Source: Hanleya hanleyi
Lineage: Eukaryota > Mollusca > Polyplacophora > Lepidopleurida > Hanleyidae
NCBI GenBank assembly: GCA_036873755.1
Contig: JAVTVY010017232.1
Span: forward strand, 1 to 64,000
Length of the DNA stretch: 64,000 bases
Reading direction: 5' to 3'
Shown here: positions 6,373-63,360 of the stretch, one piece after another
Layout of the letters: each line of letters starts with the position of its first letter
Position numbering within the stretch: position 1 is the first letter of the stretch
The notes under the pieces: model-generated
The model's input: the letters and a program-made list of their open reading frames with translations, nothing else
Databases searched by the model: none
Told to the model about the DNA's origin: nothing
Position numbers and translations under genes: made by a program

Positions 6373-6969
6373 TTGACAACTGATACTAATTACAATGTTC
6401 CAAACACCAGACATCAAACATCCTGTTATTGACAAATTTGTCATTTCTGAAGAGTGTCCAATTATTTGGGTGGAATCAACTCGGTTGAAAGTAATGTTAA
6501 TATAAGCCGTGGATAAGCCGATACGGAAATCAAACGCAATTTAACAAAGCCACTGACTTATCCAAAGACTCACCCTTCGCTCTCTCCTATTCCGCTACTC
6601 TCGAGACCCTTTCCCAGACACATTGATTCCTATATTTCACCTGTCTTTCGTATTAACTTGTGGATTTCATTATTAAATACTGTTTGTCAAAAAATATATG
6701 CAGCCCAGAGTATTCTTAACTCCGCAAACGTTAATGATGGTAGAAGTCCCAACACAGACGTCACACCGCTGTCATCATTGTACATCTTTTCCTTGTACTC
6801 CATTTTCGCAAAATCTGGAACGATTTCTCGGGTTCTATCTGAATGCAGTATACAGATATCTCACCAAATATATACAACATCGTTATTGCCGAATAGTGAG
6901 TTCCTGATGTCAGTTATCGCGGTCAATCTATTTCCAAGAAGGAAACTTCCAGAGTAACAGTCGCAGAGA

Positions 6970-7205
6970 TCACAGTTTTCCCAGTTGAGCCAAAATGACA
7001 TCCGGTTCGATGACAACGTCTCCTTTCAAAGAATTAGCTTCATTTTTCCGTTTATGTTTTCGTTGCCGCTGGCGTTTGCGAATGCGCTTACGTCGTCTTT
7101 TCCTCATCTTGCGTCTTAATTTTTTAAGCTTCTTTTTCCTGCGATGTAGTTTTTTCTTCCAACGCCGGCTGTACTTGGGTGGATCGGACATGTTCGTGAG
7201 AAGAT
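6970..7205 (-). CDS. rspo: R-spondin, last coding exon (basic C-terminal region)
   Basis: This is the terminal coding exon of a secreted R-spondin, a Wnt-pathway enhancer that binds LGR4-6 and ZNRF3/RNF43 through its furin-like repeats and proteoglycans through its TSP1 and basic tail. The 3' splice site is 'ctttgtattttcag', with the exon's first base at 7205. The split codon completes phase 1 (G from the TSP1 exon plus AT gives Asp). The exon reads D-L-L-T-N-M-S-D-P-P-K-Y-S-R-R-W. About 40 residues follow that are dominated by Lys and Arg (K-K-K-L-H-R-R-K-K-K-L-K-K-L). It ends in a short acidic/hydrophobic tail and a TGA at 6970-6972. The basic tail matches the known architecture of the family. 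On its own the exon could be mistaken for a small basic nuclear protein starting at the internal Met. The matching phase and the upstream TSP1 exon, 499 bp away, argue against that. Confidence 0.88.
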
Positions 7206-7704
7206 CTGAAAATACAAAGAAAGTAGTTTTGTAGTCTTGTGAAATAGTATCACTTTCTCGCAGTCTTAGTCCATAGTATATTCCCACGCCAAGGGTCTCT
7301 CAGAACTATATTTAGTGGAACGAGCCACCATGAGAGCGAGAAAGTTCTCTCCCTTGACATGGAAAATTGTTCCGATAATGACCACGCCCCGATTTACAAA
7401 TGAAGATAAGAATGAGTTCCTCTGATAAAAAGAATGTTCAGAATAAACCAGTTTTCCAACTTACGAATAGATTTTTCAGACAACTCTATCCCCATAATAA
7501 TGATTCCGCCTGTCAAACTGTCCATATATGTTAGGTACTCCAGCGATCGATGAAGGTGAAGGCTTTCAAGAGCCGATAGTCAACACAGATCCGAACGATG
7601 TAGTCAATATTCACTAAAGGGTTCAATAACCACCCCGTCATCTTCCTGGGCCACAGCCAGAATGACAAAATTTATTCTTGATTTACACCTTATCATAAAC
7701 TTAC

Positions 7705-15479: not shown

Positions 15480-17620
15480 ATATAGCGAGCCGGGAAGAAT
15501 GATTCTGAAGGCCGTCCAGAAGATAGTCTTGACTGCATTGAAACAGTACGTTATTGATTGGTCTAAGCGAGAAAATGTTGAACCTACACTCCTCGCTGAA
15601 TGACTGAACCTCACCAAGAGCAAGATCGTTGAAACAATCTGCCATTTTGACAGAAGTATACCTTCTCCAAGCAAAACAAGTACTGAAAAACCTCAATTCG
15701 CAAGAAGTTGTAACAAATCTCGAGATTCGCCATAGTCCCAGCAGACAAAGCTCCAAATAATATAACTTGATTTATATATGAATACTACTATTACCAGGTG
15801 CTAGTTAAGGAATTGATTACCATCATCGAATACGTCAACTTACTCCCAAACTTGTTTTCCAACCACTCATAACGATACACCGAAAGTGTACTGGACCCCC
15901 AAAATGCATTAATCACCATACAAAGCTAGATTCATAGCTGGTTCTAGAAGCTGCACCAACAAGCTTCTTTCAAGCCTGGGCCCTTCACGAGGTGAAAACA
16001 CTGCGCGAAAGGTATTGCGCCACTATTTCTAAAAAATCTGGCGTTAAATGTAAGTGGGTATTGGAAAAACTCAAAATGTCTTACGGAAGAACTTTATGCT
16101 GAAGGTCACATACCGTACAGGATTTCTCGACTCTCTATACTACAATCCCTCTTACTGACCGTCTAAGTTCATTAATAGTATCTGTGTTCATGAAATATAT
16201 TAATGTAAGAAGCCATAATACTACAAGCGTCTAGTCCGTCATTCATAATTCAGCCGTCGTCCATTAAAGAATATCCGCGTCCATAATCCAAAGACCTATT
16301 CCATATCCATATAACAGTATTAGCACCAAATTCAAAAAGACAATCATAGTATACATAAACATAGGCTAGTTTCCTGCAAAAGAGAAGCGATCAACAGTTT
16401 TCAATGATGCCGACAAGACATCATGATGTTCCAAAAATATAAAATCCGTATCGCTGATCAGTATTCTTAATCCATAATAATCGTTGTAAAGTCGTTATCT
16501 AAAGAATGATGTATCTCAGTCACGCTTTGATTGTGACTGTTCATATGAGCACCATGAGGATCTTGAAGTACATGGGTTCATACGGCCCCTAGCCCCGGGT
16601 TAAGCGGAATTAGACACAAGTTACGAAACGTAACGCCATAGATCTTGCATTCTTCAGCTCTACTCCATACAACGGATATCATTCAGGGATGTTTCTTTGT
16701 TTATAGAGTTGCTAGAATTTCTCATTAAAAATAACTATGTGATATATAGGTATTCCGATGGGTGCTAATTGTGCACCCTTGTTGGCTGACTTATATCTGT
16801 TCTCTTATGAATATGACTACATGCAGGCGCTTTCAAAAAACGATCAATTCAAAGCCCGTTCCCTCTCATTCACCAAACGCTATATAGACGCTGTAGATAA
16901 TCGCCATATAAATGACAAAGTGAAGGATATATATCAACCTTCACTGGATTTGAAGGAAATTACAGATAGTCCTAACGGTACATCATATTTAGACCTATAT
17001 CTTTACAAAAATGAAGCGGGCCTTCTCTCTCGTCAACTTTACGACAAAAGAGATGATTACAATTTCGACATCGTAAACTATCTCTTTCTGGACAGCAATA
17101 TTCCAGTGGGATCTGCGTATGGCGTATACATATCTCGTCGTGTAGTATTTGTTAGATGCTGTGTTAAATGTGACGATTTTATTCAACTTCACAAAACGTT
17201 ATTACAAAAACTTACGAGCGTAGCGTGCAAGATCAATGGCGTTACGTTTCGTAACTTGTGCCTAATTCCGCTCAACCCGGGGCTAGGGGACGTATGAACC
17301 CATACACTTCCAGATCCTCATAGTGTTCATATGAGCAGTTACAATCAAATCGTGAATGAGACACATCATTCCCTAGATAACGACTTTACAACCAAAATCA
17401 TGAGGATGAAGATTACTGATCATCGATACGGATTTGATATATTTTTAAACATGGTTGAAAATTGTTGATCGCTTGTCTCTTGCAGGAAAATTACCTATGT
17501 TTATGTAGACTATGATTTGTTTTAATTTGTTGCTAATGCTGTTGTATGAATTAGGTCTATGGACGCGGAAATTCTTTAATGGACGATAGCTGAATAGTGC
17601 ATGATGGACTAGACGCTTGA
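15480..17620 (+). pseudogene. Penelope-type retroelement copy, split by another copy
   Basis: This is a plus-strand copy of family A. From left to right it carries the pre-RT region (D-W-S-K-R-E-like, near 15560), the P-A-D-K-A-P-N-N segment (about 15745) and the P-K-M-H-x-S-P-Y-K-A-R-F-I-A-G segment (about 15900). After the insertion it carries M-G-A-N-C-A-P-L-L-A-D-L-Y (16758). A frame of 179 codons runs 16758-17297. Motif C reads Y-I-D-A-V-D-N where the better copy has Y-I-D-D-L-L-A-V-D-N, so a 9-base in-frame deletion has removed the second catalytic Asp. The tail ends at 'gactagacgcttg'. A reverse-oriented tail (16219-16649) interrupts it between 'agccata' and 'ttcttcagctc'. Several further stops make it inactive. 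Confidence 0.75.
16219..16649 (-). mobile_element. 5'-truncated family-A tail inserted in the copy above
   Basis: It runs from 'tacaagcgtctagtccgtca' (the inverted 3' terminus) to 'cgccatagatcttgca'. It holds only the non-RT tail. The host sequence, read against the copy at 60871-63360, should run 'agccataaagcattcttt'. Host sequence is found on both sides, so this is a nested insertion of opposite orientation and younger than its host. Confidence 0.8.
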
Positions 17621-24634: not shown

Positions 24635-24679
24635 TAAGTTTCGTAACTTGTCTGATTCCGCCTAACCCGGGTTAGGGCC

Positions 24680-25205
24680 TGTGGGGGGCCTAATCGTGTA
24701 TTTGCGCCTAATCGTGTCAGCGCCAAATCGTGTAACAAAATTGCGCCTAATAACGTGTTGCGCCTAATCGTGTAGGAAATTTGCGGTTAATGGTGGAACT
24801 GCGCCTAATCGTGTACGAAATTTGCGCTTAATTGTGGAACTGCGCCTAATCGTGTACGGAATTTGCGCCTATTTGTGTAAATGCGCCTAATCGTGTAAGG
24901 AGGCTGCGTCTAATCATGTAACTGCTCCTAATCATTTGAACGATCTTGCGCCTAATTTTGCGTTGCGCCTAATCGTGTAGAAAAATTGCTCCTAATTGTG
25001 GAACTGCGCCTAATCGTGTAGGAGATTTGCTCCTAATTCTGGAAATGCGTTTATTCGTGTGAGAAATATGCTCCTAATTGTGGAACTGCACCTAATCGTG
25101 GAAATCATTTTGCGCCTAATTATGCGCTGCGCCTAATCGTGTAGAAAATTTGCGTCTAACTGTGGAAATGCGCCTAATTGTGTATAGAGGCTGCGCCTAA
25201 ACGTG
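24680..25205 (+). repeat. Left subterminal repeats of the giant element
   Basis: About 20 diverged units of 'tgcgcctaatcgtgta' are separated by 'gaaatt' or 'gaac'-type linkers, giving a rough 30-bp period. The mirror set is at 33108-33633. Such subterminal arrays are often transposase-binding sites in DNA transposons. Confidence 0.9.
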
Positions 25206-25859
25206 CACAACGTGAAGACATAAGTAGTATGTAAAGGACGGATAAAGTCAACTTGACCTTTCGTCATTTTTGGGGAGGTCACGTGGAGATCACGTGATCA
25301 AGAGGTCAAGGTCACTATAGTTCCGGAACTTCCGGTCAGGTGACCTTTGGGGCATGTATTCCTCCGCGGTGATGCGGTCTGGCGGTGATGCGGTCGCGGG
25401 GAAAAGCATCGGCGGACAGAATGTAGTCCCAAATACGTGGGAGAAGGGGAAATTCTCCGGCAATCTTCGCCAATCTTCGGGACATTTTGGGGGCGAGAGG
25501 AGCTCCTAGTCAACCGATTGGGTCGAGTGAGGTGTCAAAGTGGAGCGCTCGTCCAGGGCGATCAAGTCATGGGTGGGTGCCTGCAAATTGAGGATTTGCC
25601 CCAAAAATATGAAAAGCGGAGCACGGACTTTATCCCTAAAATAGGGGAAAACTCGTATCAGCAAGGTCCAAAAGGGCTAATATCGATCTCCGGTTTATCG
25701 GGCCTGCCTATCAAGTCATGGGTGGGTGTATGTAAAAAGAGGACTTGTCTCCGAAAATATAAAATGCGGAACACGGACTTTACCTCAACAATAGGAGAAC
25801 GATTCGAACATTTGCATCTATAGAGGAAAATGACTGTATGGAGTATGGGGGTGGTCATT

Positions 25860-26500
25860 GTTTGTGGATTTTACTGTGGGTTGTGGGGTCTTGTTTTCTT
25901 CGTCTCACCACGTAAAACACGATGGGAATGGTCCCGGAGCTAAGCGGTGAAATTTTTCGAAAAATCCCGGTACCGGGTAGGTGTGTATTTTGGCCCATAC
26001 TTGCTCAGTGGATAGGTCTATACTAGAAAATTTACTCCTGGACATTGCGATATGGGTTGTGGGATCTTGTTTTTCACGTCTCACCACGTAGAACACGGTG
26101 GGTGGGGTCCCGAAGCTAAGCGGTGAAATTTTTCGAAAGGTTCACGGAGGTCTGGATAGGCCCATAGGCCTACTGGCTCAGTAGATAGGTCCATACTGGG
26201 CAATTCGCATATGTTCATTGCGATATGGGTTGTGGGATCTTGTTTTTCACGTCCCACCACGTAGAACACGATGGGAGGGGTCTCGAAAATAAGCGGTGAA
26301 TTTTTTTTGAAAAGTCCAGGTACCGGGTAGGTCTGTATATTGGCCCATACTAGCTCAGTGGATAGGTCCATACTGGGAAATTTACTCCTGGACATTGCGA
26401 TATGGGTTATGTGATCTTGTTTTTCCCGTCTCGTCAAGTATAACACGATGGGCGGGGTCCCGAAGCTAAGCGGTGAAATTTGTTTAAAAAAGTCACTGCG
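25860..26500 (-). repeat. Left-arm 177-bp tandem repeats
   Basis: About 3.5 units carry 'catatcgcaatgtccaggag', 'agtatggacctatccactga', 'acctacccggtacc' and 'cgtgttctacgtggtgagac' (read on the minus strand). One minus frame stays open over several units. The mirror array is at 31690-32470. Confidence 0.85.
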
Positions 26501-27125
26501 CGTTTGTGTAGTGGGTAAATAGTGCTGGATGAACGTTTTGGGGTCTAGGTGAGCCCCTAATGGTCCGATGGTGTCGTATGAGGTCTTATTTTGAAGCCCT
26601 CGTAGAGGAGCATTCGACTAGACTAATGTATCGTCCGTTTTCGTTATTCTGCGCATGCACAATCTGGTCGTAGTATAGAAAACAGACATTCTGGGGGTGC
26701 GTGGGGGTGTGTTTGGGGTAGAAATGGACCCCTATTGGTCCAAATGAGTCGTGGGATGTGTCAAAGTGAAGCTTTTGTGAGGTGGAGTCAGAATGGCGTG
26801 CTTTTTATTGCAAGTCGCGTCAATCTGCGCATGCGCATTCGGGTGTAGTAAGTAAAGTGGTCATTTTGGGGGTACGTGGGGGTGTGTTTTGGGTAGAGAG
26901 GGACCATCCTTGGTCCGAATGCGTCGTGTGGGGTGTCATTTTGTAGCTCTCGGGTGTAGACCCCGACTTGAGGCGTGTCCACGTCATCTGGGACATCATT
27001 GGTGACGTCATCAGTAGAAGTATTAGTGGAAGCGGGCATTTTGGGTGTGTAGGAAAGCGTTTGGGGTAGAGATGGACAACCCTGGTCCGAATGCGTCGTG
27101 TGAGGCGTCACCTTGTATCAACGCC
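26500..27125 (-). repeat. Left-arm repeats with NRF1-like palindromes
   Basis: Diverged units of about 180-200 bp are built from 'cgacgcattcggaccaagg', 'ctctaccc(c)aaacac', 'ccccaaaatgaccactttac' and 'gcgcatgcgcag'. They are read on the minus strand and mirrored at 31060-31690. Confidence 0.8.
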
Positions 27126-27257
27126 TGCCAACGTCAACCTTAACGCTTCAACGCCCTGGTGAATTAGCCCTGAGGCTCTGATTTTCTAGATAGTCCATGA
27201 AATTGACACTAATTCATCGAAATGCGGTGACACCCCCTCAACGCCTGTCGTTACGCC

Positions 27258-27844
27258 TTAATCCTATCTGGCCTGGGCTTTTTGGGACCTGTCGTGGCCT
27301 GGGGTGGGGAACCGAAATGGACCCCCAATTTATTTGTCTTACCCTTGAGCTAGGGAGCTAAAACTTACCACACTATACCCTTGAGTCAAACTCCAACAGA
27401 AAATGTAAACAAATCCAAGATGACCGCTTTGATGACGTCACAGTGACGTCATTTTCAAAAACGACATTTTTTGGTCGATTTTTTCGGTCAGATTTTCCGA
27501 ATTTTTTATTTATGCAATTTCTCCGCAAAAACAGCTTGATAAATTAGTAAATATTTATGTCATGTGAAATAAAATAGTTTTTGCCCACTTTTCATCACAG
27601 AAAAGCAGAAATTTTGAAGAAATATGACAAAAACATCTCTTTCTGGGACCCCACATGGCCGCCATCTTGAATTTACCCATGATCCTTCCCTCGGGGGTCA
27701 TGCAAATAGGTTCAAAATGATCCCAATATGATAAACTATAAAGTCACGAAGTTTCAGCTCTCTATTTCTTGTCGTTCCGGAGATAGCGCAGAAAGTTTGG
27801 CAGGGCGGAGATTCGACCCCCCCCCCTATGCCAGGTAGGGTTAA
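27258..27844 (+). mobile_element. TTAA-flanked MITE, copy 2, inside the left arm
   Basis: TTAA lies at 27258-27261 and 27841-27844. The ends TTAATCCTATCTGGCC and TTAACCCTACCTGGCA are inverted repeats. The right arm has the unoccupied site 'gggcgttaaggcgtaacgac' with a single TTAA at 30941-30944, which fixes the boundaries exactly. The interior matches copy 1 at 8877-9358 in opposite orientation. Confidence 0.93.
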
Positions 27845-28128
27845 CGCCCATGATGTAGACCGGTGAGAGAACAACAACAACAACAACAAGGATGACAGGC
27901 CAATCATTTTATTATCCCCTCCAGTACATCAAACCCAAACTGGGTGAGCTGTGTTGGGTATGTTTACAATACAAGCAGCCTCTTGTCCAATCAGAGGCCG
28001 CCATTTGGCGCTGCATCTGTCATATTCGTTCATGCCCGTTAGATGAATTCTCGGTTGCTCTTGTCCAACCAGAAGTCCCCATTTTAGAAAGTTCCATCTT
28101 CGGCCATGTTCGCTCTGATCCGTTTGTT

Positions 28129-28194
28129 CTAATCGTCGTCGGGCAGGCCAGGATACCGTTGTGGCAACATATCCTCAAATAGTTGTTTGCGCAT
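28129..28194 (-). CDS. 21-codon ORF conserved in both arms (left copy)
   Basis: It encodes M-R-K-Q-L-F-E-D-M-L-P-Q-R-Y-P-G-L-P-D-D-D and a stop. The right-arm copy at 30598-30663 encodes the same residues, although the flanking DNA differs. It follows 30-35 bases after the end of the gene copy at 28228-29146. It could be a small protein, the first exon of something else, or the last relic of a longer frame. No function is recognised. Confidence 0.4.
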   Translation of the reverse strand: MRKQLFEDMLPQRYPGLPDDD

Positions 28195-28227
28195 TCTGAG
28201 TATCTATCAGTGCATGGGTGAATACAT

Positions 28228-29146
28228 TCATCCGGTGGGGTGGTCGGTCACTTTGGTAACGAAAAACGTGACATTGGTCACCCTCTCTGCGACCCGTTGG
28301 GTGTTGGGGCTTTGTTGTTGGGCCCATTCCAACACATCCAATTGGTCCACTTGATCCCGCATGGGCTCTAGCGATGCCCTATCCGTGATGGTAAACGCTT
28401 GGTCAAATAGCCGGATGTTACTGATCGGGTAAAAGTATCGGACTTGGTCTGTCTCATTATGCTGCAGCACATAACCAAACGCTAGATTCAACTTCAAGGC
28501 CGTAGTTTGATCGTTGAAGATGGCTTCCACGTATTTGAAGAGCCGACACAGGGACTCTAATCGGAAATTGTAGATGTCTAGTAGCAGGCGATGACGGTGG
28601 AAACATCGTCGGATCATAAACCAATGGTCCCTGTAGATGTCACTTAATGGATGGGCGTCCGGTAAATGTTCACTGGGGGCATCCACTGGATCTTCCTGGA
28701 AATGCTCGAATTCGTCAGTCGTCAGTCACCGATGTCCGGCTTGATATCTAGGCCCGCTTCGACTATAGGCAAAAGCAAACTGGGCATGGGCTCGGTGCTC
28801 GGCAAGTGTTGGGTGGGTGGTGTCTCCATACGTTTCATCTCCCTGGGATCCTCTTCAGTGGGAGTGACCTTCCTGGGCTCCTCTTCAGTGGGAGTGACCT
28901 TCCTGGGCTCCTCTTCAGTGGAAAGTGGTCGCCCATGCCGTGGTGATGGACAATGAATCAAACGCTGATGCCGTCTTAACTGATTGAGCCGTTTGAAGAG
29001 TTGACCACATTCATTACGTTGTTCCCTCGCGCCCTCGTAGAGTGAGCGTTCGTGGCGCCGTAAAGCATCTTCCCTATTAAATGATCGTGCCGTCGCAAAT
29101 CTTCGGGGCCACTAAATGGCTTCAGGCAGGTCAAACAAGAGAACAT
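28228..29146 (-). pseudogene. Left-arm gene copy: C2H2 zinc finger plus conserved domain
   Basis: The start codon is at 29146. The first residues, M-F-S-C-L-T-C-L-K-P-F-S-G-P-E-D-L-R-R-H, form a C2H2 finger (C-x2-C-x12-H). A one-base loss near 29083 breaks the frame. The next frame reads E-D-A-L-R-R-H-E-R, then N-E-C-G-Q-L-F-K-R-L-N-Q-L-R-R-H and two or three copies of T-E-E-E-P-R-K-V-T-P. A second break with a stop lies near 28719. The remaining frame (28686-28228) holds L-S-D-I-Y-R-D-H-W-F-M-I-R-R-C-F, then L-K-L-N-L-A-F-G-Y-V-L-Q-H-N-E-T, then V-L-E-W-A-Q-Q-Q, and ends T-N-V-T-F-F-V-T-K-V-T-D-H-P-T-G-stop. Similar finger-headed proteins in cnidarians and molluscs are known to me only from memory, some perhaps linked to B-family DNA polymerases. 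That link is unverified. It is transcribed outward from the centre of the element. Confidence 0.7.
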
Positions 29147-29191
29147 TTCGGCTGCGTATCAGAAATTGCTGAACATTCCCACCTACCGCCT

Positions 29192-29199
29192 CTTTTATA
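29192..29199 (-). promoter_or_regulatory. TATA box of the zinc-finger gene
   Basis: On the minus strand TATAAAAG occurs in the context 'gggcttataaaagaggcggt', 46-53 bp before the ATG at 29146. This spacing fits a start site roughly 20 bases before the ATG. It lies in the part of the centre that the right arm lacks. Confidence 0.6.
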
Positions 29200-29304
29200 A
29201 GCCCGCAGCCCGCAAGAACTGTCCTACGTTATTCTTCCCAACAATCAGCTCATCGCTGCCCTGTACACTCGGGTGCGCTCTTGCGACATGTCTAGCATTG
29301 CGAT

Positions 29305-30005
29305 ATACAATATATTTCCTATATTATACAATATCTGCCCTTTATTATACCATATTTGCCCTCTATTATACAATAGCTCTCCTGTATTATACCATATCTT
29401 TGCTATATTATACAAATATAGATTATGGACGCGGATATTCTCTAATGGACGACGGCTGGATTATGAATGACGGACTAGACGCTTGTAATACAATATATGT
29501 CATGTATTATACCATATCTGTCCAGTATTATACAATATCTGTCCTGTATTATTCAATATCTGTCCTGAATTATACAATATTTGTCCTGTATTATACAAAA
29601 TATGTCCTGTATTATACCATATCTGTGTTGTATTATAATATATCTGTGATATATTATACAATATCTGTCCTGTATTATACAATATCTGTCCAGTATTATA
29701 CCAAATCTGTGCTGTATTATACCTTATCTGTCCTGTATTATACCATATCTGTCCAGTATTATACAATATCTGTCCTGTATTATACCATATCTGTGCTGTA
29801 TTATACAATATCTGTCCTGTATTATAGATTATCTGTCCTGTATTATACCAAATATGTTCTGTATTGTACCAATAAATCCTGTACTATACAATATATGTTC
29901 TGTATTATACAATATGTGTTCTCTATTATATCATATCTCTCATGCATTATACCACATCTGCCCTGTATTGTACAATATTTGTCCTGTATTATACAATACC
30001 CATGT
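29305..30005 (+). repeat. Central 20-22-bp minisatellite
   Basis: About 30 units of 'tattatacaatatctgtcct' vary as accatatc/acaatatc and g/c changes. Both strands are open for long distances, giving a repetitive apparent Y-Y-T-I-S-V-L protein that is an artefact. The array replaces the region where the right-arm gene should have its zinc-finger start. Confidence 0.93.
29421..29489 (+). mobile_element. 69-bp Penelope-type 3' tip inside the minisatellite
   Basis: 'gattatggacgcggatattc' to 'gactagacgcttgtaat' is the terminal segment of the family-A tail (compare 34045-34112, or 56614-56680 inverted). It is nearly identical to the other tips. Array units resume on both sides, so it is an extremely 5'-truncated insertion into the array or a captured fragment. 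Confidence 0.85.
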
Positions 30006-30017
30006 CCAGTTTGCTTG

Positions 30018-30562
30018 TGTCTACAGTCGAGGAGGGTCTAGATATCCAGCCGGACACTGATGATACTGTTCCACATACGCCTGACGACATCGAGCATTTC
30101 CAGGAAGATCCAGTGGATGCCCCCAGTGATCTCTTACCGGACGCCCATCCATTAAGTGACATTTACAGGGACCATTGGTTCATGATCCGTCGATGTTTCC
30201 ACCGTCATCGCCCGCTACCAGACATCTACAATTTCCGGTTGGAGGACCTGTCTCGGCTCTTCAAGTACGCGGAAGCCTACTTCAACGATCAAATGACGGC
30301 CTTCAAGTTGAATCTGGCGTTTGGTTATGTACTGCAGCATAATGAGACAGACCAAGTCCGATAATTTTACTCGAGCAGTAACATCCGGGTATTTGACCTA
30401 CCGTCACGGATAGGGCATCACTAGAGACCGTGCCTGACCAAGTGGACCAATTGGATGTGTCGGAATGGGCCCAACAACAACGCGCCAACACCCAATGGGT
30501 CGTAGAGAGGCTGACCAATGTCACGTTTTTCGTTACCAAGCTGACCGACCACCCCATCTGAT
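30018..30562 (+). pseudogene. Right-arm mirror copy of the gene, lacking its start
   Basis: Homology with the left-arm copy begins at G-L-D-I-Q-P-D-T-D-D (about 30030). It continues D-I-E-H-F-Q-E-D-P-V-D-A-P-S, then S-D-I-Y-R-D-H-W-F-M-I-R-R-C-F and L-K-L-N-L-A-F-G-Y-V-L-Q-H-N-E-T. A TAA at 30361 ends the frame where the left copy reads V-R-Y-F-Y-P. Beyond it the D-V-x-E-W-A-Q-Q-Q and T-N-V-T-F-F-V-T-K-L-T-D-H-P-I segments are still readable. This copy keeps the junction (H-T-P-D-D-I-E-H-F) that the left copy has lost. The zinc-finger start and TATA box are absent, replaced by the minisatellite. Confidence 0.7.
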
Positions 30563-30597
30563 GAATGTATTCACCCATGCACTGATAGATACTCAGA

Positions 30598-30663
30598 ATG
30601 CGCAAACAACTATTTGAGGATATGTTGCCTCAACGGTATCCTGGCCTGCCCGACGACGATTAG
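30598..30663 (+). CDS. 21-codon ORF conserved in both arms (right copy)
   Basis: Mirror of 28129-28194, with the same 21 residues and TAG. Only a few silent or flanking changes are seen ('cctcaacgg' against 'ccacaacgg'). Conservation at the protein level is suggestive but the sample is two copies. Confidence 0.4.
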   Translation: MRKQLFEDMLPQRYPGLPDDD

Positions 30664-31059
30664 AACAAACGGATCAGAGCGAACATGGCCGAAGATGGAA
30701 CTTTCTGAAATGGCGACTTCTGATTGGACAAGAGCAGCCGAGAATACATCTAACGAAAGAAAGAATATGACAGATGCAGCACCAAATGGTGGCCTCTGAT
30801 TACTTGAGGCTACTTGTATTATAAACATACCCAACGCAGTTCCCCCAGCTTGGGTATGATATACTGGAGGCGATAATAACATGATTGATCTGTCATCATG
30901 TTTGTTGCTGTTTTTCTCTCACCGGTCTACATCATGGGCGTTAAGGCGTAACGACAGGCGTTGACGGGCGTCACCGCATTTCGATGAATTAGTGTCAATT
31001 TCATGGACTATCTTGAAAATCAGAGCTTCAGGGCTAATTCACCAGGGCGTTGAAGCGTT

Positions 31060-31690
31060 CAGCAGGCGTTGATACTCCTCACATGACCCATTCGGACCAC
31101 GGATGGTCCATCTCTACCCCAAACGCTTTCCTACACACCTCAAAATGTCCGCTTTCGCTAATACGTCTACTGATGACGTCACCAATGACGTCACAGATCA
31201 CGTGGACATGCCTCAAATGGTGGTCTACATACCAACAGCTACAAAATGACACCCCACACGACGCATTCGGACCAAGCATGGTCCCTCTCTACCCCAAACA
31301 CAACCCCACGCACCCCCAAAATGACCACTTTACTTACTACACCCAACTGCGCATGTGCAGATTGACGCAATTTGCAATAAAAAAACACAACATTCTGACT
31401 CTACCCTACAAAAGCTTTACTTTGACACCTCCCACGACTCATTTGGACCAATAGTTGTCCATCTCTACCCCAAACACACCTCACGCACCCCCAGAATGTC
31501 TGCTTTCTATACTACTACCAGACTGCGCATGCGCAGAATAATTAAAACGGACGATAAATTAGTCCAGTCGGATGCTCCTCCACGAGAGCTTGAAACTAAG
31601 ACCTCATACGACACCATCGGACCACTAGGGGCTCACCTACACCCCAAACGCCCACCCAGCACTATTTGCCCACTACGCATGTGCGCAGTA
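31060..31690 (+). repeat. Right-arm repeats with NRF1-like palindromes
   Basis: Plus-strand mirror of 26500-27125. Units with 'cgacgcattcggaccaagc', 'ctctaccccaaacac' and 'ctgcgcatgcgcagaa' (about 31523) occur. The 'tgatgacgtcaccaatgacg' stretch near 31170 adds CRE-like motifs. Confidence 0.8.
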
Positions 31691-32470
31691 TCTTTTTAAA
31701 AAAAAAATCACCGCTTAGCTTCGGGACCCCATCGCCCATCGTGTTCTACGTGGTGAGACGTGAAAAACAATATCCCACAACCTATATCGCAATGTCCAGG
31801 AGTATATTTCCCAGTATGGACCTATCCACTGAGCCAGTATGGGCCAATATACAGACCTACCCGGTACCTGGACCTTTCAAAAAAAAATTCACCGCTTAAC
31901 TTCGAGACCCCTCCCATCGTGTTCTACGTGGTTAGACATGAAAAACAAGATCCCGCAACCCATATCGCAATGAACATGTGTGAATTGCCCAGTATGGACC
32001 TATCCACTGAGCCAGTATGGGCCAATATGCAGACCTACCCGGTACCTGGACCGTTCAAAAATATTTCACCGCTTAACTTCGAGACCCCTCTCATCGTGTT
32101 CTACGTGGTTAGACGTGAAAAACAAGATCCCGCAACCCATATCGCAATGAATATGTGTGAATTGCCCAGTATGGACCTATCCACTGAGCCAGTAGGCCTA
32201 TGGGCCTACACAGACCTCCGTGCACTTTTCGAAAAATTTCACAGCTTAGCCCATCGTGTTCTACGTGGTGAGACGTGAAAAACAGGATCCCACGACCCAT
32301 ATCGCAATGTCCAGGATGTTTCCCAGTATGGACCTATCCACTGAGCCAGTATGGGCCTATATACAGACCTACCCGGTACCGAAACATTTCGAAGAATTTC
32401 ACCGCTTAGCTCCTAGACCCTTCCCATCGTGTTTTACGTGGTGAGACGAAGAAAACAAGACCCCACAACC
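31690..32470 (+). repeat. Right-arm 177-bp tandem repeats
   Basis: About 4.5 units are present against about 3.5 on the left. A 172-codon frame (31760-32278) is open through three units because the 177-bp period is a multiple of three. Confidence 0.85.
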
Positions 32471-33107
32471 CACAGTGGAATCCACAAAAAATGACCACAC
32501 CCCATACCCTATACAGGCATTTTTCAGTATAGATGCAAATGTTCGAATCATTCTCCTATTGTTGAGGTAAAGTGAAGTCCGTGTTCCGCATTTTATATTT
32601 TCGGAGTCCTCATTTTACATACACCCATCCATGACTTGATAGGCAGGCCCGATAAGCCAGAGACCGATATTGACCCTTTTCCCCTATTTTAGGGGTAAAG
32701 TCCGTGTTCTGCTTTTTATATTTTCGGGACAAATCCTCAATTTACATGCGCCAACCCATGAATTGATCGCCCTGGACGAGCGCTCCACTTTGACACCTCA
32801 CGCGACCCAATCGGTCCATTGGGGCCCCTCTGGCCCCCAAAATGCCCCGAAGATTGGCGACGATTGCCGGAGAATTTTCCCCGGCTCTCCGCGTATTTGG
32901 GACTACTTTCTATCCGCGGAGGCTTTTTCCCGCGATCGTATCATCGCCAGACCGCAACACCGCGGAGAAATACGTGACCGGAAGTCCCGGAACTATAGTG
33001 ACCTTGACCTCTTGATCACGTGATCTCTCCGTGACCTCCCCCAAAATGACGAAAGGTCAAGTTGACTTTATCCGTCCTTTACATACTACTTATGTCTTCA
33101 CGTTGTG

Positions 33108-33633
33108 CACGTTTAGGCACAGCCTCTATACACAATTAGGCGCATTTCCACAGTTAGACGCAAATTTTCTACACGATTAGGCGCAACGCATAATTATGCG
33201 CAAAATGATTTCCACGATTAGGCGCAGTTCCACAATTAGGAGCATACTTCTCACACGAATAGGCGCATTTCCACAATTAGGAGCAAATCTCCTACACGAT
33301 TAGGCGCAGTTCCACAATTAGGAGCAATTTTTCTACACGGTTAGGCGCAACGCAAAATTAGGCGCAAGATCGTTCAAATGATTAGGAGCAGTTACATGAT
33401 TAGACGCAGCTTCCTTACATGATTAGGCGCATTTACACAAATAGGCGCAAATTCCGTACACCATTAGGCGCAGTTCCACAATTAAGCGCAAATTTCGTAC
33501 ACGATTAGGCGCAGTTCCACCATTAACCGCAAATTTCCTACACGATTAGGCGCAACACGTTATTAGGCGCAATTTTGTTACACGATTTGGCGCTGACACG
33601 ATTAGGCGCAAATACACGATTAGGCCCCCCACA
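33108..33633 (-). repeat. Right subterminal repeats of the giant element
   Basis: Exact or near-exact inverse of 24680-25205, with the terminal 120 bp identical. The unit is 'tacacgattaggcgca' on the plus strand. Confidence 0.93.
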
Positions 33634-34112
33634 GGGCCGTATGAACACATATACTTCAAGATCCCCATGGTGTTCATATAAACAGTCACAATCAAAGCGT
33701 GACTGAGATACATCATTCTTTAGATAACGACTTAACAACGAATATCATATGAATTAAGAATACTGTTAAGCGATACGGATTTAATATTTTTGAAACATCA
33801 TGAGGTCTTGTCAGTATAGAAGCTAACAATGTCCGGTGGCAAAGAGTGTCCGGCTCTAAGCCAGCTAGGACATTTTGGTGTCCTTCCTTGGTTGCAATAG
33901 AAAAGAATATGAAAAGGGACACTAATCCCCAGGACGCTCCCAGCCATCACACCGGCATCATTGAAAAACTGATGACCGCTTCTCTCTTGCCTTTGTTTAT
34001 GTATACTATGATTGTCTTTTTGAATTTGGTGTTATTATATGGAATAGGTATTTGGATTAATATTCTTTAATGGACGACGACTGGCTAATGAATGACGTAC
34101 CAGACGCTTGTA

Positions 34113-43284: not shown

Positions 43285-45490
43285 TAGCCCACCATCACCA
43301 GATGGTGGGCTGTTCAAATCAGTTTTCGTCCGTGGTCCGTCGTCCGTCGTCCGTCAGTCCGTCGTCCGTCCGTAAACAATTCTTGTTACCGCGATATCTC
43401 AGGAACTACTGCATGGATCTTTTTCAAATTTGGTACACAGGTTCCCCCTGGGGTCTAGTTGTGCAAGAAACCTTTTCTGGTCCGATTCGAAAATCCAATA
43501 TGGCCACCAGGCAGCCATCTTGGATTACCGCGATTTCTCGGGAACTACTGCATGGATCTTTTTCAAATTTGGTACACAGGTTCCCCTTGGGGTCTAGTTG
43601 TGCAAGAAACCTTTTCTGGTCCGATTTTAAAATCCAATATGGCCACCAGGCGGCCATCTTTGATTTCCCCATGAAATCTTGTTACCGCGATTTCTCAGGA
43701 ACTGCTGCCTGGATCTTTTTCAAATTTGGTACACAGGTTCCCCTTGGGGTCTAGTTGTGCAAGAAACCTTTTCTGGTCCGATTCGAAAATCCAATATGGC
43801 CACCAGGCAGCCATCTTGGATTTCCCCATGAAACCTTGTTACCACGATTTCTCGGGAACTACTGCATGGATCTTTTTCAAATTTGGTACACAGGTTCCCC
43901 TTGAGGTCTAGTTGTGCAAGAAACCTTTTCTGGCCCGATTCAAAAATCCAATATGGCCACCAGGCAGCCATCTTGGATTTCCCCATGAAACCTTGTTACC
44001 ACGATTTCTCGGGAACTACTGCTTGGATCTTTTTCAAATTTGGTACACAGATTCCCCTTGGGGTCTAGTTGTGCAAGAAACCTTTTCTGGTCCGATTTTA
44101 AAATCCAATATGGCCACCAGGCAGCCATCTTTGATTTCCCCATGAAATCTTGTTACCGCGATTTCTCAGGAACTAGTGCCTGGATCTTTTTCAAATTTGG
44201 TACACAGGTTCCCCTTGGGGTCTAGTTGTGCAAGAAACCTTTTCTGGTCCGAATCGAAAATCCAATATGGCCACCAGGCAGCCATCTTGGATTTCCCCCA
44301 TGAAACCTTGTTATTGCGATTTCTCAGGAACTACTGCATGGATATTTCTCAAATTTGGTACACAGGTTCCCCTTGGGGTCTAGTTGAGCAAGATACCTTT
44401 TCTGGTCCGATTCGAAAATCCAATATGGCTACCAGGCAGCCATCTTGGATTTCCCAATGAAACCTTGTTATCGCGATTTCTCAGGAACTACTGCATGGAT
44501 CCTTCTCAAATTTGGTACACAGGTTCCCCTTGGGGTCTAGTTGTGCAAGATACCTTTTCTGGTCCGATTCGAAAATCCAATATGGCCACCAGGCAGCCAT
44601 CTTGGATTTCTCCAGGAAACTTAGTTATCGTCATTTCTCAGTGCACCATGGATCTTTCTCAGATTTGGTACACAGATTCTCCTTAGGGTCTAGTTTTGCA
44701 AGATAGCTTTTTCGGTCCGAATCGAAAATCCAATATGGCCACAAGGCGGCCATCTTGGATTTCCCCATAAAACCTTGTTATCGCAACTTCTCAGGAATTA
44801 CTGCATGGATCTTCGGTCTAGTTGTGCAAGATGCCTTTTCTGGTCCGATTCGAAAATCCAATATGGCCACCAGGCAGCCATCCTGGATTTCCCCATTAAA
44901 CTTTGTTATCGTCATTTCTCAGGAAGTACTGCATGGATCTTTCTCAAATTTGGTACACAGGTTCACCTTATGATCTAGTTGTGCAAGATACCTTTTTCGG
45001 TTCAAATTGAGAATCCAATATGGCCACCAGGCGGCCATCTTAGATTTCCCATGAAACTTTGTTATCGTGATTTCTCAGGAAGCACTGCCTGGATCTTTCT
45101 CAAATTTGGTAGACAGGTTGCCCTTGTGGTCCAGTTGTGCAACATACCTTTTCTGGTCCGATTTCAAAATCCAATATGTCCATCAGGCGGACATCTTGGA
45201 TTTCCCCATGAAACTTTGTTATTGCGATTTCTCAGAAACTACTGCATGGATCTTCCTCAAATTTGGTACACAGATTCCCCTTGTGGCCCAGTTGTGCAAG
45301 ATACCTTTTTTGGTCCGATTCGAAAATCCAATATGGCTGTCAGGTGGCCATTTTGAATTTCCCCTTGAAACCTTGTTATCGTGAATTCTCAGGAAATATT
45401 TCATGGATCTTTCTGAAATTTGGTACACAGGTCTCACATGGGGCCTACTTGTGCAAGATACCTTTTTTGGTCCGATTCGAAAATCCAATT
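43285..45490 (+). repeat. Hairpin-headed array C, about 13 units of 157 bp
   Basis: The head 'tttttagcccaccatcacca' and 'gatggtgggc' forms a perfect 10-bp stem, followed by a 'gtccgtcgtccgtcg' run. Units follow with 'cgatttctcaggaactactg', 'ggatctttttcaaatttggt', 'acacaggttccccttggggt' and 'ccaatatggccaccaggc'. Unit starts fall near 43678, 43835, 43991, 44149, 44308 and 44466. Identity is high in the left half and falls to the right. Confidence 0.93.
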
Positions 45491-56613: not shown

Positions 56614-57120
56614 TACAAGCGTCTAATCCGTCATCCATAATTCAGCCGTCGTCCATTAGAGAATATCCGCGTCCATAATCCAAAGACCTATTCCATATTC
56701 CATATAACAGTATTAGCACCAAATTCAAAAAGACAATCATAGTATACATAAACATAGGCTTGTTTCCTGCAAGAGAGAAGCGGTCAACAGTTTTCATTGA
56801 TGCCGGCAAGACATCATGATGTTCCAAAAATATCAAATCCGTATCGCTGATCAGTATTCTTAATCCATAATATTCGTTGTAAAGTCGTCATCTAAAGAAT
56901 GATGTATCTCAGTCACGCTTTGATTGTGCTTGTTCATATGAGTATCATGAGGATCTTGAAGTGCATGGGTTTATACGGCCCCTAGCCCCGGGTTAAGCGG
57001 AATTAGACACAAGTTACGAAACGTAGCGCCATAGATCTTGCACGCTACGTTCGTATTTTTTTTATCAGCATGCGATATGTATCGCCAAATTTGAGAAACT
57101 TTGAGTGGAGGCGTTCCTAT
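56614..57120 (-). mobile_element. Family-A Penelope-type tail plus RT C-terminus
   Basis: It runs from the inverted tip 'tacaagcgtctaatccgtca' through 'cccctagccccgggttaagc' to 'gagaaactttgagtggaggc'. The last part encodes the RT C-terminus (L-H-S-K-F-like, read on the minus strand). It is truncated there. Confidence 0.82.
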
Positions 57121-57354
57121 AACGATTGCTTCGTCTATAAATTGCGTACAAATTATGTATAACAACACGGTGTGTTGTTTATGCGACAGGTTAATTTGAA
57201 CACGCTTACTGGGCAGTTTATTGTTGTACAGCAGCCATACAACAGTGGATCTTCGAACCTCCGTCAATAATATTTCCGCAAATCGTTTCAATGACAAAGT
57301 CAAAATGCGAAGATATAGTAAGCTTTTGAGATATGTCAGAATCCACATCAAAGG

Positions 57355-57545
57355 AACGAATTGGAGCGATATGCAAGAGCTGGGAAATATTGACGACGGC
57401 TGGCGACTAAAAAGCAACCATATGACTCCACAGCGACACCCAACATTCAGACTCGAGAATACGGAGGAATCTCGGACGTTGCCTTAGTATCTGAGCCGCG
57501 TTTTCATTGCAGATGTTCATGTCGAGACTGAAGTATGCCATGTTT
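57355..57545 (-). repeat. Family-B tail fragment
   Basis: 'ttggagcgatatgcaagagc', 'gacgacggctggcgactaaa' and 'tgactccacagcgacac' lead to 'atctgagccgcgttttcatt'. It is colinear with 36090-36420. Confidence 0.5.
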
Positions 57546-60682: not shown

Positions 60683-60870
60683 CGTTCTTAGAAATTTAAT
60701 TTACACGTGCCTTACAAGTTAAATTTAGAAGTTTCGAGCGTGTTTTCAGCTCCAAATGTGCTGAATACCTGGATCTTGAGCGTCAAGTCTGATAGACTTC
60801 TCTGCTCCTCCTGCCCCTGAATTGCTTATTCTGCTTCCGGTTTGTTTCTACCATCCGCCTTTATGCCAAT

Positions 60871-63360
60871 TACAAGCGTCTAGTCCGTCATTCATAATCC
60901 AGCCGTCGTCCATTAGAGAATATCCGCGTCCATAATCCAAAGACCTATTCCATTTCCATATAACAGTATTAGCACCAAATTCAAAAAGACAAAAGTATAC
61001 ATAAACATAGGCTTGTTTCCTGCAAGAGAGAAGCGGTCAACAATTTTCAATGATGCCGGCAAGACATCATGATGTTCCAAAATATCAAATCCGTATCGCT
61101 GATCAGTATTCTTAATCCATAATATTCGTTATAGAGTCGTCATCTAAAAATGATGTACCTCAGCCACGCTTTGATTGTGACTGTTCATATGAGTACCATG
61201 AGGATCTTGAAGTACATGGGCTCATACGGCCCCTAGCCCCGGGTTAAGCGGAATTAGACACATGTTACGAAACGTAGCGCCATAGATCTTGCACGCTACG
61301 TTCGTATTTTGCTATCAGCATGCGATATGTATCGCCAAATTTGAGAAACTTTGAGTGGAGGCGCTTGGTGGAATAGCCCTGTTTATAAGTTTCTGCAACA
61401 ATGTTTTGTGACGTTGATTAAAATCGTCACATTTAACACAGGATCTAGCAAATGCTACTAAGCGAGATATGTATACGCCATATGCAGGTCCCACTGGAAT
61501 ATTACTATCCAGAAAGGGATAGTTTACGATGTCGAAATTGTAATCATCTCTTTTGTCATAAAGTCGACGAGAGAGAATGCCCGCTTCATTTTTATAGAGA
61601 TAGAGATCTAAATAAGATGTGCCTGTAGGGCTATCTGTAGTTTCCTTCAAATCCAGTGAAGGTGGATATATATCCTTCACTGCGTCATTTATATAGCGAT
61701 TATCCACAGCGAGAAGATCGTCTATATAGCGTTTGGTGAATGAGAAGGAACGGGCTTTGAGTGGATCGGTTTTTGAAAGCGCCTGCATATAGTCATATTC
61801 ATAAGAGAACAGATACAGGTCAGCCAACAGGGGTGCACAATTAGTACCCATTGGAATACCTATATGCTGCTGATATATTGTGTTCCCAAATTTCACATAG
61901 ATATTTTTAATGAGAAATTCAAGCAACTCTATAAACAAAGAAACATCCCATGAATGATATCTCTTGTATGTAGTCGAGCTAAAGAATGCTTTATGGCTTC
62001 CGACATTAATATATCTACGATCAGTTTTCTTGAACACAGATACTATTAATGAACTTATACAGTCAATAAGGTCCTGATGAGGGATTGTAGTATAGAGAGT
62101 CGAGAAATCCCATGTGGATACATGTCTGTACGGTATGTGACCTTTAGCATCAAGTTCTTCCGTAAGACATTTTGAGTTTTTCAATATCCACATACATTCA
62201 ACGCCAGAGTTCTTAGAAATAGTGGCGCAATACCTTTCCCAAAATGCTTTTACCTCCTGAAGGGCCCTCGTCAATAGGGTTGAAAGAAGCTTGGTGGTGC
62301 AGCTTCTAGAACCAGCTATGAATCTAGCTTTGTATGGTGATTTATGCATTTTGGGAGTCCAGTATATTTTTGGTATGTCGCTATGATTGGTTGGAAGACA
62401 AATACCTCTTTCTTGAGAAACTTTTTGTGATTGTTAAATAAATCTTCCAGAGTAAATGCAGTTTGGGAGTAAGTAGATGTATTTGATGAAGATATGTCTA
62501 CACTCAATTCTTTAACCAGCACCTGGTAATAGTAATATTTACATATGAATATTATATTATTCGGAGCTTTGTCTGCTGGGACTATGACGAATTTACTCTG
62601 GAGATTTGCTAGAACTTCTTGCGAATTGAGGTTTCTCAGTACTTGTTTTGCTTGGGAAGAGTACTTCTGTCAATATGGCGGATTGTTTCAACGACCTTGC
62701 TCTTGGTGAGGTCCAGCCAATCAGCGAGTACTGTAGGTTCAACTTTTTCTCGCTTAGACCAATCAATAACGTACTGTTCTAATGCAGACAGGACTATCTT
62801 CTGGTCGGCCTTCAGATTTATTCTTCTTGGCTCTCTATATTTAGGTCCTTTCCAGGAGTAATTTCAGATCCTTATCACTCACCACATCAAGGTCACCAGT
62901 CACAATATGTTTGCATGGTGTATAGATAAAGTTCGACAATTCACAATCACAACTATAGCCTCCTGACGTGTATAAGTTCCAGTCAAACTCCTTGACAACA
63001 TTGGAGTAATTGAATATTTTGGTGGCTATAGATTTAGTATACTTATATGAAATGCAAGGAGGTTCTGTGAACTTGAAATAGTTTGGTACAGCGTTGCGTA
63101 CCTCTGGATCATTCAGGATTCGAGGTAAATTAATGATGTCCAGTCCTTTATCTAAGTAGTTGAGTTTCAAGAAAAGCCGATCTTGAGATGTTTCGATTAT
63201 GTTCACTGGACGATACAACCGAAAATACGCTATATCTTGACATACTTTACTGATTTTGGATGGTATTATATTTCCTGAAGACGCAGATTGCTGTATATCT
63301 CTGGCTATTTGATTTAAAGCTCGTTGAAGTTACTTCAAAATATCGCCTCCCCTAGATGAA
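60871..63360 (-). pseudogene. Nearly complete Penelope-type retroelement
   Basis: This is the best copy of family A. Read from right to left: I-A-R-D-I-Q-Q-S-A-S-S-G (63300); L-N-Y-L-D-K-G-L-D-I-I-N-L-P (63160); F-V-I-V-P-A-D-K-A-P-N-N (62580). A 344-codon open frame (62349-61315) follows. It has P-K-M-H-K-S-P-Y-K-A-R-F-I-A-G, motif A (S-T-W-D-F-S-T-L-Y-T-T), motif B (G-I-P-M-G-T-N-C-A-P-L-L-A-D-L) and motif C (Y-I-D-D at 61717-61728). The tail ends at 60871. Frame breaks lie near 62843, 62660, 62413 and 61385, with one more upstream near 63350. All RT catalytic Asp residues are present in the main frame. No GIY-YIG domain is seen within this copy. The family call comes from RT motif style and nearby GIY-YIG pieces. 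Confidence 0.78.

Follow-up and report, generated by a model that had tools for sequence, protein, structure and literature searches.

A high-copy palindromic DNA transposon family of probable foldback type in Hanleya hanleyi

What sort of transposable element consists largely of its own mirror image, and is that mirror image an inherited design or instead a peculiarity of a single locus? The question is raised by a stretch of 64,000 nucleotides (here ‘the window’) from the mollusc Hanleya hanleyi, i.e., positions 1 to 64,000 of the forward strand of contig JAVTVY010017232.1, assembly GCA_036873755.1. Within it, positions 24680-33633 make up an element of 8954 bp with termini TGTGG...CCACA and with GGGCC on both flanks (24675-24679 and 33634-33638). 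This element probably is one member of a high-copy, non-autonomous family of foldback-type DNA transposons, a family moved in trans by a putative DDE transposase of the TG..CA/5-bp class, that is, one associated with TG..CA ends and 5-bp target-site duplications (TSDs). Its main parts are as follows.

24675-24679, no strand: target duplication GGGCC, left copy (flank comparison; uninterrupted paralogs of the site)
24680-28790, + strand: left arm of the palindrome, 4.1 kb (BLAST and global alignment)
28791-29998, no strand: asymmetric centre, or loop, 1.2 kb (arm comparison and Tandem Repeats Finder, TRF)
29999-33633, - strand: right arm of the palindrome, 3.6 kb, the reverse complement of the left (BLAST and global alignment)
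33634-33638, no strand: target duplication GGGCC, right copy (flank comparison)

By BLAST the arms match one another in three main blocks at 87-89% identity, and by global alignment at 91.7% over 3437 aligned columns, with 896 gap columns; the top match from 20 shuffles of the left arm was 27 bits. At the tips the two arms agree exactly over 171 bp, and of their outermost 550 positions 12 differ. A first-pass annotation of the window had described exact inverse ends with at least 120 bp of tip identity, a 5-bp flanking repeat GGGCC, inverted arms of 3.5-4 kb, and a mirrored gene. These descriptions held: tip identity extends to 171 bp, GGGCC lies at both positions given above, the arms measure 4.1 and 3.6 kb and align as just stated, and pieces of a gene occur at 28228-28725 (-) and at about 30077-30555 (+), the second of them frameshifted. 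From the outside in, an arm presents a 15-bp motif array, a stretch without listed tandem repeats, a tandem repeat of about 175 bp, inner sequence, and then a gene piece. The biggest asymmetry is a 531-bp repeat (27320-27850) which, along with the zinc-finger part of the gene, is found in the left arm only. Long, repetitive inverted repeats, that is, make up most of the element and surround a variable middle, as is seen with foldback transposons.

The design recurs throughout the genome searched (2.48 Gb in 52,793 contigs), where 695 tips (341 + 354) lie within two mismatches of a 27-mer, versus 0 + 0 for the reversed control. Among the first 100 exact tips listed there are 23 neighbouring pairs on one contig, of which 18 point inward at spacings of 4.5-12.9 kb (median 8.4 kb). 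Twenty copies were read, i.e., 19 others plus the window element, and both ends are clean in 12; the remaining eight (L036, L037, L038, L042, L043, L044, L047 and L048), in which an end is mutated or lies outside the stretch, were left out of the TSD count. All 12 clean-ended copies, having been chosen by their tips, show the termini TGTGG and CCACA. Eight of them possess an exact 5-bp duplication (GGGCC, AGGGT, ACCCA, GGGCA, ACCCC, AGGTT, CACCC, GCCCC), whereas one of 132 mispaired flanks agrees at that length. None matches at 6, 7 or 8 bp, the count covering 5, 6, 7 and 8 bp.

Joined flanks align through uninterrupted paralogs, that is, ‘empty’ sites, for four insertions: those of the window, L039, L041 and L045. 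The window insertion has five such sites, one in L037 and four in the window, with GGGCC present in four of the five and GGGAC in one of the window sites. The duplicated five bases are present once in the empty sites of L039 and L041, and one of the five target bases differs in that of L045. The window sites, each from joined-flank alignment, are these.

16412-16680, - strand: uninterrupted target-site paralog
17210-17452, + strand: uninterrupted target-site paralog
56807-57060, - strand: uninterrupted target-site paralog
61060-61300, - strand: uninterrupted target-site paralog

Repeats near reverse-transcriptase (RT)-like frames of the window are what provide these empty sites. One such frame, at 61318-62433 (region 61315-62433), matches RVT_1 at E 8.7e-06, which is below the Pfam cut-off; frames at 16743-17297 and 56971-57483 resemble it, and all three we take to be Penelope-like.

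The target itself follows the rule RSSSY. Over 41 tip flanks the counts are R 33 at position -5, S 35 at -4, S 38 at -3, S 35 at -2 and Y 31 at -1, with GGG or CCC in 31 of the 41 versus 6.4% of 5-mers located 16-40 bp away. These 41 flanks represent 29 insertions, 12 of which contribute both sides. Given one flank per insertion (n=29), the respective counts are R 24, S 24, S 28, S 24 and Y 23, with GGG or CCC in 23 of 29. Two contigs, those of L013 and L028/L035, have an identical 40-bp flank beside a tip, and because of such sharing some copies could be segmental or haplotype duplicates, so that copy counts may be inflated. In L031 (203-273), a second, variant tip, TGTCGGGGGCC, is located 70 bp outside of the copy's own tip, as either a leftover of another insertion or a tip duplication.

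Inverted arms were found by self-comparison in all 12 copies tested. At 28 of 30 tip loci arm sequence continues from the tip to the locus edge, within a few bases, and the other two (L014 and L015) belong to a shortened subfamily whose ends remain inverted over 0.7-1.0 kb. None of these 30 loci showed an ordinary copy with a single arm. Three copies (L040, L041 and L046) retain the same tips and exact 5-bp TSDs and yet are missing the mirrored gene, their interiors holding instead pieces of non-long-terminal-repeat retroelements (RVT_1 by Pfam in L040). The element, then, has defined ends, inserts with a 5-bp stagger according to a target rule, tolerates different interiors, and has been amplified as a unit.

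Was the palindrome itself inherited, or has it arisen anew in each copy? The arms, as compared over ten near-complete copies out of the 20, retain their separate identities. In a DNA tree of the ‘DHW’ portion of the mirrored gene, the ten left arms all group in one clade and the ten right arms all in the other, each at 100/100. That tree involves one left/right change versus an average of 7.0 in shuffles, with 0 of 500 shuffles as low. Inner-arm identity likewise is 0.889-0.894 between left and right within a copy, versus 0.968-0.982 for the same arm between copies. As the arms cluster by side, what was amplified as a unit is a single palindrome whose arms had already diverged. The outer 500 bp behave differently: identity is 0.983-0.986 in every comparison, and in the tip tree left and right are mixed, with five changes, with 46-54 of 500 shuffles as low, and with no starred branch. 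The outer approximately 500 bp lacking a clear arm identity, the tips appear to have been homogenised.

The copies read share a single origin. The inverted duplication behind them would have occurred once, followed by divergence of the inner arms, re-equalisation of the tips, and then radiation of the copies. The first-pass annotation had offered a distinct superfamily and an inverted dimer as alternatives. The two are not mutually exclusive: an inverted duplication did, it would seem, take place, once and before the radiation, and a superfamily is possible rather than proven. It had proposed as well asking whether most full-length copies are palindromic with 5-bp duplications: 12 of 12 are palindromic and 8 of 12 have an exact 5-bp TSD, and the architecture therefore is intrinsic.

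Repeats within the arms and centre provide further detail.

24686-25207, + strand: left subterminal array, in which the 15-bp motif GCGCCTAATCGTGTA is directly repeated 18 times (motif scan)
25877-26481, + strand: left-arm inner tandem repeat, period 173, 3.4 copies (tandem-repeat search, TRF)
27320-27850, no strand: 531-bp dispersed repeat, left arm only (repeat comparison)
29304-29998, no strand: 21-bp AT-rich tandem array in the centre (TRF rows 29304-29415 and 29488-29998)
29421-29489, no strand: 69-bp fragment within the central array, 100% identical to window 60869-60937 (repeat comparison)
31695-32472, - strand: right-arm inner tandem repeat, period 177, 4.5 copies (tandem-repeat search, TRF)
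33106-33627, - strand: right subterminal array, 20 copies of GCGCCTAATCGTGTA (motif scan)

The motif, counted at up to three mismatches (shuffle mean 0.005), is spaced in the left array mostly by 18 or 23 bp, i.e., as a 41-bp dimer. It numbers 20 in each of six arms from three other copies, and none was found 900-4000 bp inward from the tip. Among the 16 other gene-bearing copies, 15 have the 531-bp repeat in their left arm, either intact or divided in two, and it hence predates the radiation; the exception is L045, with just partial or approximately 81% matches. The 69-bp fragment is part of a repeat of the window. Rfam gave no match anywhere in the window at the gathering threshold.

How might such an element have arisen and moved? 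A single inverted duplication, possibly via template switching during gap repair or replication, would have given the element its two mirrored halves, in each of which a zinc-finger/DHW gene points away from the central array. The halves would then have diverged by approximately 11%, the outer approximately 500 bp becoming homogenised again, after which the palindrome was amplified as a unit, as arm clades, duplications and empty sites show. The trans-acting DDE transposase would be of the retroviral-integrase, Ginger or Mu-like mechanistic class, given TG..CA ends, a 5-bp stagger, and the GC-rich, palindromic target RSSSY; Mu resembles the proposed transposase in its mechanism. Predicted for this enzyme is binding to the approximately 20 direct 15-bp motifs per tip, cutting at TG/CA, and insertion, such that it would require the tips while tolerating differing interiors.

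The mirrored gene might be viewed, from a different perspective, as itself the means of transposition. Its pieces in the window are as follows.

28228-28725, - strand: left gene piece, open frame of 165 amino acids, ‘DHW’ domain (open reading frame and sequence comparison)
28722-29111, - strand: left gene piece, C2H2 zinc finger upstream of DHW, with a stop between them in the window copy (Pfam and comparison)
30077-30555, + strand: right, mirrored DHW piece, frameshifted near residues 108-112 (sequence comparison)

These pieces read outward from the central AT-rich array. In the 17 gene-bearing copies (window included), a full zinc finger adjoins one DHW copy only. In the window and 12 of the other 16, a break near residues 107-116 (between 94 and 112 in L043) interrupts the second DHW copy; the four in which the right DHW piece stays unsplit there are L037, L038, L045 and L048.

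Beyond the copies read, a 31-base pattern from the gene occurs at 603 sites (307 + 296) with up to three mismatches, versus 0 + 0 for a control. Among the first 100 of these sites, adjacent DHW pairs within 3 kb are divergent in 20 of 20 cases, spaced by 1.2-2.5 kb. A DHW protein search of the genome (34,590 first-look candidates, 150 scored) supplied 14 adjacent pairs within 4 kb, counted by eye, of which 10 are divergent, three tandem and one convergent. At ten places, zinc-finger and DHW frames free of stops have the same length (319 amino acids at eight, 316 at one and 326 at one), as paired by eye among the matches listed. Because of their lower identity, these places probably represent an older lineage, one of approximately 77-91% identity which includes C31171, C2163 and C13869. 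On contig C13869 a pair of zinc-finger frames (338 and 283 amino acids) lies in divergent orientation with 595 bp between them, suggesting that both arms once had a whole gene.

A distinct superfamily, in which some or all of the transposition machinery is encoded by the mirrored gene and the ancestral, autonomous form had two divergent genes, we regard as unlikely. Spelled out, it would be a ‘self-mirrored’ superfamily with two complete divergent zinc-finger/DHW genes around a shared bidirectional promoter array. The protein would act on the 15-bp arrays with 5-bp RSSSY insertion, the mirror would be the working form, and the tips would be kept alike by conversion, a scheme about which we are just as doubtful. 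Consistent with it are the tip leading into these arms at 28 of 30 tip loci, the ten full-frame places, and the C13869 pair. So too is the constraint on DHW, since over 13 left-arm copies there are 56 amino-acid changes versus 70.6 expected (0 of 500 simulations as low) and a ratio of nonsynonymous to synonymous change (dN/dS) of 0.40 (bootstrap 0.26-0.62), which suggests past selection. Those 13, however, were preselected as lacking indels, with L034, L037, L044 and L045 excluded as broken or cut. Four of the 13 frames contain a stop versus 3.1 expected without selection, and the gene is broken in the window copy. Furthermore, the reverse +2 frame of DHW gives a similar ratio, 0.385, such that the third-position signal is no proof of coding. 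Pfam and PHROGs reveal no catalytic family, and the subfamily which bears RT and lacks the gene still has exact TSDs.

The searches of the gene were these. Of the 16 stop-to-stop frames of at least 100 amino acids in the window element, one contains C2H2 fingers according to Pfam, which detects no transposase, integrase or polymerase in any of them and whose TPR-like matches are to a low-complexity frame of the central array. By Pfam and PHROGs the gene pieces match only zinc-finger-like families, weak sub-threshold rows aside, and DHW matches none. No DHW relative was found at E <= 0.001 in a set of 5.8 billion proteins, with candidates limited to proteins of approximately 91-289 and 234-746 amino acids, and viral contigs gave one pattern match to DHW, none confirmed. 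Two candidates were rejected. Long frames around DHW (427 amino acids in L051) are not a longer gene, the frame running on through the 21-bp array. That a DHW-like domain forms the N-terminus of invertebrate DNA polymerase B (PolB) received no support versus two PolB N-termini of this genome (tblastn; hhalign probability 0.2%), a weak test given shallow alignments. None of the contigs matching PF03175, a PolB family (21, up to C11772, among the matches listed), coincides with any of the 77 for which an exact tip is listed.

Several points count against a family moved in trans by a DDE transposase as set out here. Neither an autonomous copy nor a transposase was found in the 20 copies read, for which reason both the class and the trans-mobilisation are put forward conditionally. 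Contigs matching PF00665 (rve; 34, up to C11772, among the matches listed), most of which will be retroelements, likewise include none of the 77 with a listed exact tip. Four of the 12 clean-ended copies lack an exact 5-bp TSD, with L031, L032 and L035 showing no match and L049 matching over 4 bp only (GGGGG/GGGGT), and the sample of copies, just 20, is small. The tip tree contains a weak cluster of four right tips (82/83), its bootstrap not settled, and constraint may account for part of the likeness of tips. As tips do vary between copies (1.4-1.6%, versus 1.8-3.2% for inner arms) and yet show nothing like the left/right excess of approximately 8-9% seen in inner arms, constraint alone nevertheless is an unlikely cause of their pattern.

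Other mirrored or repetitive sequences were observed as well. PF03175 genes occur as divergent mirrored pairs in four of four contigs with two listed loci (C4967, C28015, C41214 and C17501; by eye, among the matches listed), and in L052 (C4967:18000-25500) a palindrome centre at 6531-7501 is 96% identical. There thus may be a second, unrelated giant mirrored element in this genome. Within the window, positions 1-960 hold tandem repeats of 152-bp and 37-bp periods, with short stretches approximately 80% similar to the arms at element positions 675-867. Positions 43386-45489 are occupied by extended tandem arrays that overlap one another (main period 157 bp, 8.2 + 4.3 copies), with no relation to the element seen.

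It is among foldback elements, FB itself being counted as one, that the architecture finds its closest counterparts. These are described as having long composite terminal inverted repeats (TIRs) with flanking, tandem-repeat and inner domains around a variable middle (PMC4079207). Tetris of Drosophila virilis is non-autonomous and rearranged, with a shorter element sharing its tips, TSDs of 8-10 bp, TIRs of up to 1.7 kb and no conserved open reading frames (PMC4079207), and Tm1 of Meloidogyne has the foldback plan with mostly 9-bp TSDs (PMC3169594). In its composite TIR domain order, tandem repeats and variable middle the Hanleya element is like both, and a Mutator class, as has been suggested for most foldbacks, accordingly could be entertained. 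The 8-10-bp TSDs of Mutator-type foldbacks are not seen, however: the count of exactly 5 bp in 8 of 12 and of 0 of 12 at 6, 7 and 8 bp renders that class very unlikely, and arms of 3.6-4.1 kb with mirrored gene pieces differ as well. No autonomous copy was present in the stretches read, no genome search directed at a transposase of Mutator-like elements (MULEs) having been made.

A Transib/RAG-like identity we consider still harder to sustain. ProtoRAG, Transib and RAG do share a 5-bp, GC-biased TSD with the element, but ProtoRAG ends begin CACTATG, the CAC triplet being essential, and its RAG1L and RAG2L genes stand tail to tail (PMC8289069), unlike TGTGG...CCACA ends and divergent gene pieces. 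A search for PF12940 (RAG1-like) returned 0 matches with controls equally silent, and so carries no weight either way.

An inverted dimer or assembly artefact private to the window, conceivable insofar as large inverted repeats trouble assemblers, is refuted, since the same asymmetric palindrome occurs at many loci, ten copies at different sites having the same inner-arm divergence of approximately 11%.

Among other long-repeat elements, the TU elements of sea urchins resemble this one in that a 15-bp tandem repeat makes up the outer domain of their long inverted repeats, and differ in having an 8-bp TSD. Galileo, of the P superfamily, is abundant and has long foldback-like TIRs and a palindromic target motif, all in common with the element, and differs in its TSD of 7 or 8 bp and its GTATTAC target, being served by a P-type transposase (PMC4168063). 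The ends TGTGG and CCACA agree with the 5' TGTNR termini of Ginger1 and Ginger2/TDD-4, and the 5-bp TSD with that of TDD-4/5 (PMC2836005). Ginger1, however, has a 4-bp TSD of CCGG or CCGT, Ginger2 has one of 4 bp at the AT-rich target RTATAY rather than RSSSY, and their TIRs measure 40-270 and 50-180 bp respectively (PMC2836005). Their integrase gene, Gypsy-like in Ginger2/TDD, is not seen here, with no rve match in the 16 frames noted above and no overlap of rve and tip contigs among the matches listed. The 6-bp TSD of Polintons (PMC10045372) was found in 0 of 12 copies, nor do any of those 16 frames match PolB or integrase. KolobokP has a composite-like layout and occurs in several animal phyla, though its long terminal repeats are direct (PMC9587614) where those here are inverted.

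The element thus lacks one or more of the tested signatures of each of Ginger1, Ginger2, Transib/ProtoRAG, Polintons and Mutator foldbacks, and none of the superfamilies tested fits in full. The first-pass annotation's view that nothing known combines these features was too strong as regards arms and internal repeats, which foldbacks possess. As regards the whole combination, i.e., 5-bp RSSSY TSDs, TG..CA ends, palindromic arms and mirrored genes, no description was found in the open-licence papers searched. Should the mirrored gene be the transposition gene, then this is a new superfamily, which is possible. One would expect instability from inverted arms that are several kilobases long, and yet a single genome contains many copies of this design in which the differences between the arms have been preserved. 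With its copies, empty sites and clear target rules, the family lends itself to the study of palindrome persistence and tip homogenisation. With the architecture of a foldback transposon, it bears as well on which transposase moves foldbacks outside of the Mutator and P groups.

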